The notes under the pieces are model-generated. The model was not told where the DNA came from. It made no database searches and saw only the letters and a list, made by a program, of their open reading frames with translations. From assembly GCF_040515995.1 (NCBI RefSeq), contig NZ_CP159485.1:1426001-1490000 (forward strand): a stretch of DNA of 64,000 bases. Direction: 5' to 3'. Below, one piece after another: positions 21,866 to 26,347 of the stretch (the first letter of the stretch is position 1; every line of letters begins with the position of its first letter). Both the position numbers and the translations under genes were made by a program. This stretch comes from Proteinivorax hydrogeniformans (lineage in GTDB: Bacteria > Bacillota > Proteinivoracia > Proteinivoracales > Proteinivoracaceae).

Positions 21866-21905
21866 AAACATAAAAAAAAGCTACTGGCTAGAACCAGTAG
21901 CTTTT
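21866..21905 (-). terminator. Terminator of the YflT-type gene
   Basis: A 12-bp perfect stem AAAAGCTACTGG/CCAGTAGCTTTT (21876-21887, 21894-21905) with a long T-run on the minus strand (TTTTTTTTATG). It starts 4 bases past the stop at 21909. Confidence 0.92.
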
Positions 21906-21908
21906 GAT

Positions 21909-22481
21909 TTAATGACTTTCAACATCTTGAGCGCCTTTTTCACGCATTATCGATGCTGCATCCTCAGTATCATTTGACTCTAATATAACTAGAATATGTC
22001 CTTCTTGGACTTTCGACTCATAGTGCTTACTTCTTTCTTCAGGAATCCCATAGTCAACAAGACCTCCGGCAACGCCACCTGTTAGGGCGCCTGTTAATAT
22101 ACCCGCCATTGGACCAGCTGCAATTATAGGGCCTAACCCTGGAATTACTAGAGCTCCTGCTCCCACAGCAAGTCCTGCCAATCCGCCTAGAGCTCCACCT
22201 GTCAATGTGCCGTCGGTAAGGTTTTGATCTTCAAAGGATAACTCACTATCTTTATTAGCGGACGTTTCTGTGTTAAATCCAGAATCACTGTACTTCTGCC
22301 TGTACTCGTTACTTTCCACCCTATAGTTAGTATCTTCAACTTCGGGGTTATTTTGTTGTCCCTGTTGCTTGTCTTTTGCAACAATAGAGATTTCTCCTGC
22401 AAATTGATCTTGTCTTAACGTTTTTACAGCTTCCTCTGCTTGTTGTCTAGAAGTGAACAAACCTATTATTTTTTGTGCCAT
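21909..22481 (-). CDS. YflT-domain (general stress 17M-like) protein with glycine zipper
   Basis: About 190 residues. The N terminus AQKIIGLFTSRQQAEEAVKTLR is typical of the YflT/GsiB-neighbour stress domain. A hydrophilic middle is followed by a long Gly/Ala-rich hydrophobic stretch (about 95-145, GGALGGLAGLAVGAGALVIP) of glycine-zipper type that should enter or bind membranes, and a short C-terminal beta-alpha part (HILVILESND). Function unknown; related proteins are stress-induced. The ATG at 22481 follows AGGAGG. That SD lies in one arm of a hairpin described separately. Confidence 0.75.
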   Translation of the reverse strand: MAQKIIGLFTSRQQAEEAVKTLRQDQFAGEISIVAKDKQQGQQNNPEVEDTNYRVESNEYRQKYSDSGFNTETSANKDSELSFEDQNLTDGTLTGGALGGLAGLAVGAGALVIPGLGPIIAAGPMAGILTGALTGGVAGGLVDYGIPEERSKHYESKVQEGHILVILESNDTEDAASIMREKGAQDVESH

Positions 22482-22482
22482 T

Positions 22483-22531
22483 AAAAAACCTCCTAATTTT
22501 AATATCATTATTATGATATCCGAGGAGGTTT
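22483..22531 (-). terminator. Hairpin: terminator of ylmC-like gene that also masks the next SD
   Basis: On the minus strand AAACCTCCT (22531-22523) pairs with AGGAGGTTT (22494-22486), and an inner stem ATATCAT/ATGATAT (22519-22513, 22508-22502) stacks between them. TTTTTT follows the outer stem, so it looks like an intrinsic terminator. The 3' arm is also the SD of the YflT-type gene, whose ATG starts 5 bases later. Confidence 0.6.
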
Positions 22532-22540
22532 AAAATTATT

Positions 22541-22786
22541 TTATTCTTCATCTACATTAACGATTATAGTGTCTTGGCCAATTTTTTTTATTGAAGACCA
22601 AGGTATGGTGACACTTTTAGTGTTTCCTGAAAGTGTGCTCCAAACGTTTGCTTTATCTGGAATTATAAGTTCCTTGATTCCACCTGTTTCAATATCGATT
22701 ACTAAGTCACAGTTTCCTACAACTCCTAGCTTTTTACCATCACTATAGTTAATAATCTCTTTGCTATCAAGCTCAGAAAAACGCAT
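22541..22786 (-). CDS. YlmC/YmxH-family PRC-barrel protein
   Basis: 81 residues. Family blocks are clear: FSELDSKEIINYSDGKKLG at the start, then DLVIDIETGGIKELIIP and IPWSSIKKIGQDTIIV. The fold is a PRC barrel. Members are sporulation-associated; in B. subtilis ymxH lies just upstream of spoVFA, the same relation as here with one extra gene between. Molecular role unknown. SD GGAGG sits right after the stop of the Spo0E-like gene. Confidence 0.88.
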   Translation of the reverse strand: MRFSELDSKEIINYSDGKKLGVVGNCDLVIDIETGGIKELIIPDKANVWSTLSGNTKSVTIPWSSIKKIGQDTIIVNVDEE

Positions 22787-23042: not shown

Positions 23043-24062
23043 TTAAAAATTTTGATCGATTTTTGTAATATCTTCTTTTTGAAAGTCTGGGCATAACATT
23101 CTATCCATATGTACAATCTCATACCCTTTTTCCTTAATACCTTCTATCATCATTTCTAAAGCTAATGGTGTTTGTTCCGTAGGATGCATCAAAATAATTG
23201 CCCCATTGTGTATATTTTCAATAATTCTATTTGACATATTTTCTGAACCAGGTCGCTGCCAATCAATTGTATCTAAGCTCCATAATACGTTTGTCATTCC
23301 TTCTTTATGAGCCACTTGGAAAATTCTTTTTTCTTTCTCACCATAAGGTGGGCTAAAAAAATTAGCCTTTTTACCAGTTGCTTTATAAATAGCCTCATTT
23401 GTTTTGTTAATTTCTTCTATGATTTTATCATCACTTATCTTACTCATATAGGGATCGGAATAGCCGTGATTACCAATTACATGGCCTTGCTTTTGTATTT
23501 TGTCTACAATCTGAGTGTTTTTTTCAGCCCATTTTCCAACTAAAAAAAAATTTGCTTTACACTCATGTTCTTTTAATATATCTAGCATTTCAAGTAAGTA
23601 TTCTGTACCCCATGAGACATTAATTACAAAAGATACCATCTTTTTACTTGGATGCCCTTGGTAAATTGGAACATCTGCGTAATCTTCTATGGTTTTTTCT
23701 GGTTCTATTGTGTTAAGGTATGGAATAACTTTTTCTCCTTTTGAAGAATTTATGATTTTTTCCGCTGTTTTCTCTATATTTAGCTCAAAGCCATTTAAGT
23801 GAGGAATCAAACTCTGTGTTTCAGGATCGATGTAAGCACTTTTAGGTTCTCTCTCATAGTTACTAGCAACAGATCGTAAGTAATTTTCTACCTCATCTTT
23901 TTTCACTCCACCGAGGTTGAAATCCCCGAAAACTACGTTGGCATTAACCGTTGAAACAGAACTATAAAACGATGCTCCAACTATTAATAATATTAAAAAT
24001 ACCTTTATTAAAACTACCGTAATTAAAGTTTTAAATCTTAATGTTTTTATGTATATCGCCAT
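23043..24062 (-). CDS. YlxY-like polysaccharide deacetylase homologue lacking catalytic residues
   Basis: 339 residues: a membrane anchor (about 10-32), a domain like the VanW-associated peptidoglycan-binding type (about 38-130, NVVFGDFNLGGVKKDE), then a NodB deacetylase fold (about 140-335). LDILKEHECKANFFLVGKWA, GHVIGNHGYS and FFSPPYGE are clear NodB landmarks. However the TFDDG motif is replaced by INVSWG (147-152), and the second metal His after NHGYS is Asp (203). Only H194 and H199 remain. B. subtilis ylxY, likewise next to pnpA, belongs to this divergent group. It probably acts, if at all, on cell-wall material, or is a non-catalytic protein. Confidence 0.82.
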   Translation of the reverse strand: MAIYIKTLRFKTLITVVLIKVFLILLIVGASFYSSVSTVNANVVFGDFNLGGVKKDEVENYLRSVASNYEREPKSAYIDPETQSLIPHLNGFELNIEKTAEKIINSSKGEKVIPYLNTIEPEKTIEDYADVPIYQGHPSKKMVSFVINVSWGTEYLLEMLDILKEHECKANFFLVGKWAEKNTQIVDKIQKQGHVIGNHGYSDPYMSKISDDKIIEEINKTNEAIYKATGKKANFFSPPYGEKEKRIFQVAHKEGMTNVLWSLDTIDWQRPGSENMSNRIIENIHNGAIILMHPTEQTPLALEMMIEGIKEKGYEIVHMDRMLCPDFQKEDITKIDQNF

Positions 24063-24117
24063 ATCTCCACCTCCTATATAAATAATAGTATTTCGAGGAT
24101 TGGGTAGGTATTACAAA

Positions 24118-26271: not shown

Positions 26272-26291
26272 CGTCATCCTCCTTTCAGATA

Positions 26292-26319
26292 ATATTATCC
26301 CTTTTTATAGGAATAATAT
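26292..26319 (-). promoter_or_regulatory. Leader hairpin before pnp
   Basis: ATATTATTCC and GGGATAATAT (minus strand) pair over 10 positions with one G-T, loop TATAAAAA, ending 21 bases before the start codon. It might be a processing site; in Enterobacteria PNPase controls its own mRNA through such a stem, but this is only an analogy. Confidence 0.45.
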
Positions 26320-26347
26320 GCCTTCAACACTATTTTGAATTTACTGA

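Follow-up and report, generated by a model that had tools for sequence, protein, structure and literature searches.

The window, a 64,000-nucleotide stretch of a Proteinivorax hydrogeniformans contig, carries on its minus strand, in order, pnp, a ylxY-type deacetylase gene, a Spo0E-like gene, ylmC/ymxH, a YflT/DUF1269 gene, a terminator-like hairpin, dpaA, and dpaB. The 59 nt between ylmC and the YflT/DUF1269 gene, both on the minus strand, fold into a hairpin that takes in the Shine-Dalgarno sequence (SD) of the latter gene. The features considered here are as follows.

22541..22786, minus: ylmC/ymxH, YlmC/YmxH family sporulation protein (TIGR02888), the putative source of read-through RNA
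22535..22540, minus: candidate weak -35 element, AATAAT, with a 17-nt spacer, found at the same place in the sister species
22523..22531, minus: 5' arm AAACCTCCT (anti-SD), pairing with 22486-22494 in the MFE and centroid structures
22501..22520, minus: inner stem GATATCAT/ATGATATT, 22520-22513 pairing with 22508-22501, loop AATA at 22512-22509
22509..22517, minus: candidate forespore-type -10 element ATCATAATA, assigned by position, ending 27 nt before the ATG
22486..22494, minus: 3' arm AGGAGGTTT, containing the SD AGGAGG at 22489-22494
21909..22481, minus: YflT/DUF1269 glycine-zipper protein, 190 aa, the gene with the masked SD
21876..21905, minus: terminator-like hairpin 3' of the YflT gene, separating it from dpaA

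An earlier note on this DNA had proposed that one hairpin both ends ylmC transcripts and hides the ribosome-binding site of the next gene, and had suggested folding the region in silico. The hairpin was borne out: the inner stem and the paired outer arms are present, and the fold (22486-22531, minus) has an energy of -17.2 kcal/mol (z -3.2), with 2 of 200 shuffles equal or better. The 3' arm does contain the AGGAGG of the YflT-type gene (22494-22489, minus), at a distance of 7 nt, not the 5 bases given in the note, from the ATG (22481-22479, minus). Six T's follow the AGGAGG as described, but three are paired in the stem, leaving a free U-tract of ~3 nt. The 5' arm begins 9 nt past the ylmC stop codon, and the candidate -10 element lies within the inner stem region.

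Two other identities for the hairpin were rejected. The pattern ACCTCCT-N5-34-AGGAGGT occurs at just two sites in the 2.83-Mb genome (control pattern, 0), and the flanks of the single other perfect site are unrelated to those here, which argues against a repeated element. The inner dyad is broken in the sister species, where the stem is not conserved base for base, and this spoke against a protein operator.

We measured masking as the free-energy cost of opening the SD in ylmC read-through RNA, relative to shuffles of the upstream part with the SD kept. For the window this energy was ~10.4 kcal/mol (z 3.2-3.6; reached by 0 of 100 shuffles), against 0.4 kcal/mol in RNA begun at the candidate promoter start. 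The sister species (G001, same genus, protein 90% identical) gave 10.3 kcal/mol, even though 13 spacer and tail positions differ; in this one comparison, simulated drift of equal size gave a mean of 4.4 kcal/mol, and 3.5% of runs kept the G001 value. Its pairs are partly redrawn, with a shifted inner stem, one C-G changed to U-G, and new outer A-U pairs. Thus, the conserved feature is the masking and not the sequence. The rest of the family (G002-G004) had no masking (z about 0).

A YflT-type homologue was present in 43 of 61 genomes. We collected 163 upstream regions (133 nonredundant) and ran a two-block motif search, without a prior pattern, on 98 of the homologue regions. The motif common to these 98 regions, NNG[ATC]AT, 16-17 nt, GG[AC]ATA[AC]TA, has the form of forespore sigF/sigG promoters. 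In four family members, including the window's genome, the same matrix scored 7.2-8.8 upstream of one SASP gene each, at sites of the form TAGCAT-16/17-TGCAAACTA or GTAATAMTA; most other SASP genes in these four genomes scored lower. The motif in the family and the SASP matches suggest that the YflT-type gene family is most likely expressed in the forespore.

In the window itself, the promoter candidate scored 2.5-2.9, and 38 of 100 shuffles did as well, so it is not significant by sequence and its presence is argued from its position relative to that in relatives. The end of the -10 element lies 27 nt from the ATG, compared with 27-29 nt in relatives of the same class; an alternative candidate, GATATCATA, lies 3 nt upstream of ATCATAATA. 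A start downstream of the 5' arm holds for most relatives and has a weak, positionally matching candidate in the window, where the promoter is presumably active.

Masking followed linkage to ylmC. Homologues directly behind ylmC (n = 66) had a mean z of 1.22, with 32% above 1.96, while those without ylmC upstream (n = 67) had a mean z of -0.03, with 4% above this cut, which was chosen after the data had been seen (p 2.9e-6, kinship ignored). As a control, 95 other genes behind co-directional neighbors on the same contigs gave a mean z of -0.06, with 6% above 1.96 (p 2e-8 when compared with the first set's ylmC-linked genes, kinship again ignored). Median promoter scores were nearly as good without ylmC (7.5) as with it (8.7). 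On the protein tree we counted 12 changes in ylmC linkage and 19 in masking, but only five independent pairs lay on well-supported branches; these run in the expected direction (about 2.1 versus 0.2 at a z cut of 1.5), and after tree correction the association across these five pairs was not significant. Strong masking appeared in a number of distinct clades whose sequences are unrelated.

The SD-pairing arm lay within the -35/-10 spacer in 17 of 21 strongly masked cases. Among shuffles with the SD more than 90% paired, 22% had the arm in the spacer, which gives an expectation of 4.7 cases. The window and its sister are included in the 17 by way of their weak promoter candidates. Restricting the set to promoter scores above 5 gave 13 of 17 (3.5 expected). 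In all 21 strong cases the arm was upstream of the predicted start, and across ylmC-linked loci the median energy to open the SD was 1.8 kcal/mol from the predicted start versus 6.4 kcal/mol in read-through RNA. RNA begun at such a promoter would thus lack the arm. This placement is what a device would need in order to silence read-through RNA yet spare promoter RNA; coupling or termination would not ask for it.

Compensatory changes, for which the note had suggested looking, were found in one clade. Among eight Dethiobacter-like sequences, pairing reaches 90% in a 14-bp helix that ends in the SD; four of its pairs are changed on both sides, and one position occurs as G-C, A-U, and C-G. Its covariation score of 0.291 was reached by 0 of 500 shuffles, and slid controls gave at most 0.176. 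Five Halanaerobiales-type sequences showed no covariation; here the anti-SD is 98% paired but hardly varies, and so carries little information on pairing. One such relative has a 20-bp hairpin with the -10 element in its loop (-30.6 kcal/mol, z -6.65). Thus, the note's proposal that read-through RNA carries a masked SD is supported at the locus, in the sister species, and in many relatives, with covariation in the Dethiobacter-like clade.

The same layout was present at other genes. A search of 91 genomes for CCTCCT, a -10 element, and AGGAGG in that order returned 35 sites, versus 9 for the reversed control, and several of the 35 are located upstream of spore genes. A SpoVT gene with this layout had an SD opening energy of 14.8 kcal/mol (z 3.7), and a DUF378 gene (L244, G237; 74 aa), 60 nt behind a co-directional gene, had a strong forespore-type promoter inside its SD hairpin (16.1 kcal/mol, z 4.9). 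In the sister species, ylxY (L263, G001), the third gene upstream in the cluster, carries a perfect 15-bp hairpin over the SD with a forespore-like -10 element inside (17.9 kcal/mol, z 6.5); ylxY of the window (24062-24110, minus) has a -10-like site, GAAATACTA, and only partial masking (7.0 kcal/mol, z 0.9). Elsewhere in the window's genome (G000), a VanW-like gene (L002/L234; G000:C1:1412681-1412705, minus, outside the window), which lies 52 nt behind a GntR-type gene, has TCACCTCCTT-loop-AAGGAGGTGA over its SD (13.2 kcal/mol, z 4.0). A CotF-domain gene (L223/L262; G000:C1:872672-872702, minus) has a strong forespore promoter, TTGCAT-17-TAAATACTA, with CCTCCTT in the spacer facing AAGGAGG; its masking energy of 5.5 kcal/mol was not above shuffles. 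An alpha/beta SASP gene and LonB likewise had the layout with masking not beyond shuffles. Some of the sites precede ordinary genes, and the pattern is therefore enriched rather than specific.

As a separate observation, the forespore matrix also gave a very good match immediately upstream of pnp (window 26290-26325, minus; AGGCAT-16-GGGATAATA, score 11.1) at a position that coincides with a strong hairpin. This match could be due to chance within a processing or terminator-like hairpin.

Several explanations of the hairpin were weighed. The other half of the earlier proposal, that it is an intrinsic terminator for ylmC transcripts with the next gene's SD inside it by coincidence, would account for the TTTTTTA after the window hairpin, and the same arms could serve both roles. 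A terminator scan made no call between the two genes, though its loop limit would miss this hairpin. Half of the U-tract is within the stem, the tract is broken in the sister species (TATTTTAT), and a run of at least five T's after the SD occurred in 2 of 21 strongly masked loci versus 1 of 67 without ylmC. We consider termination quite improbable. Chance complementarity, with no function in the window's genus, would fit the lack of masking in G002-G004, and some pairs do arise by chance, given that CTCCT..AGGAGG occurs 24-25 times in the genome versus 8-9 for the control. The window's z of 3.2-3.6, the retention in the sister species against drift (0.035), and the recurrence of the layout in other clades and at other genes of the window's genome make chance rather improbable.

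Translational coupling is unlikely as well. Ribosomes finishing ylmC would open the hairpin, and the YflT protein would be made only upon ylmC translation. The ylmC stop codon is near enough to the 5' arm for a terminating ribosome to reach it, and in several relatives it lies 0-6 nt before the SD-pairing part. However, among the strong cases the distance from the stop codon to the SD-pairing arm ranges from -18 to +126 nt, a spread too wide for coupling; in the window, judging from the usual ribosome footprint, the ribosome would reach only about three basal A-U pairs; and the arm's place in the promoter spacer would be left unexplained. A leader that stress would open, as an RNA thermometer or through a bound factor, is highly improbable, despite the masked SD and a protein domain named heat induced stress protein YflT. 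Opening the SD would still take 8.9 kcal/mol at 50°C, 8.2 at 55°C, and 6.5 at 65°C; an Rfam scan of 20-27 kb returned no match at the gathering score; and the forespore-type promoter RNA of homologues would lack the arm. The earlier note had left release of the SD to heat, a bound factor, or an internal promoter. Heat appears unlikely from these energies, and the internal promoter is favored by the forespore-type -10 elements that relatives place between the arms. The note had also held that transcription starting past the 5' arm would refute its proposal. Such a start would refute a heat- or factor-gated leader, yet silencing of read-through RNA needs it.

The hairpin is real and probably functional, and we read it as being, more likely than not, a silencer of read-through RNA built around an internal forespore promoter. 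What computation shows is the folded structure with its masking energy, the fact that the sister species retains this masking, a promoter motif shared across the family, and how often and where anti-SD arms turn up in relatives. The arrangement that such silencing presupposes, a co-directional upstream gene without a separate terminator call in between, is present. Polymerase continuing out of ylmC, and out of more distant upstream genes, would make a long RNA; such read-through presumably takes place. In this RNA, AAACCTCCT would fold back onto AGGAGG, and the YflT-type protein would not be made, with masking presumably lowering protein output. Within the forespore, transcription would instead begin past the 5' arm, at a sigF/sigG-type promoter that the hairpin encloses, and the resulting shorter RNA would be unable to form the hairpin and would leave its SD free. 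The homologues, too, point to silencing of read-through RNA rather than to a thermosensor or terminator.

Related arrangements have been described. In Bacillus subtilis sigG, a hairpin of 20+ bp was proposed to block translation of spoIIG read-through RNA and cannot form in PsigG RNA (PMC5942855); the fold-back of spoIIGA-sigE read-through RNA goes back to Masuda 1988, as described in PMC5942855. As proposed for the window, a forespore gene stands behind another sporulation gene, and RNA from a sigF/sigG promoter avoids the hairpin; the gene is a different one, the sequence is unrelated, the stem is 20+ bp rather than 9 + 8 bp, and sigG has a second small hairpin at the ribosome-binding site in its own leader (PMC5942855). 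The sigG upstream region of the Dethiobacter-like G061 (L195) also folds over the SD, as reported for B. subtilis, while sigG of the window's genome, checked as a positive control, showed no masking hairpin, so the B. subtilis feature is not universal. In the phage T4 late genes I-TevI, soc, and e, long early/middle RNA hides the SD, and late-promoter RNA lacks the hairpin sequence (PMC2988022). Here, too, the promoter is sited so that its own RNA escapes the hairpin, but T4 relies on late promoters and lytic timing, whereas the window would rely on cell-type-specific sigma factors. RNA thermometers and riboswitch-type SD sequestration likewise hold the SD in a hairpin; the window differs in having no expected gating in the usual temperature range, no ligand domain found, and release by start-site choice. 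The locus would work like the known sigG/T4 mechanism; none of its tested features speaks against this, and its promoter is a candidate.

More generally, forespore genes across spore-forming Bacillota could repeatedly evolve an anti-SD in their own -35/-10 spacer. One DNA stretch would then both start the right RNA and silence the wrong one, acting as a general "promoter inside a hairpin" insulator that selection would favor at any spore gene following an earlier-expressed gene. We hold this generalization tentatively, as a little short of an even call. The recurrent promoter-embedded form across spore-formers may be new to specialists; we found no description of it among open-licence papers.

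The silence of spore genes behind genes transcribed at other times is discussed mostly as control by promoters and terminators. The translational layer proposed so far for sigG would extend to a conserved uncharacterized glycine-zipper gene and, judging from the pattern, also to SpoVT, VanW-like, and deacetylase genes. Its signature, an anti-SD in the promoter spacer, is searchable and testable by simple reporters in B. subtilis.
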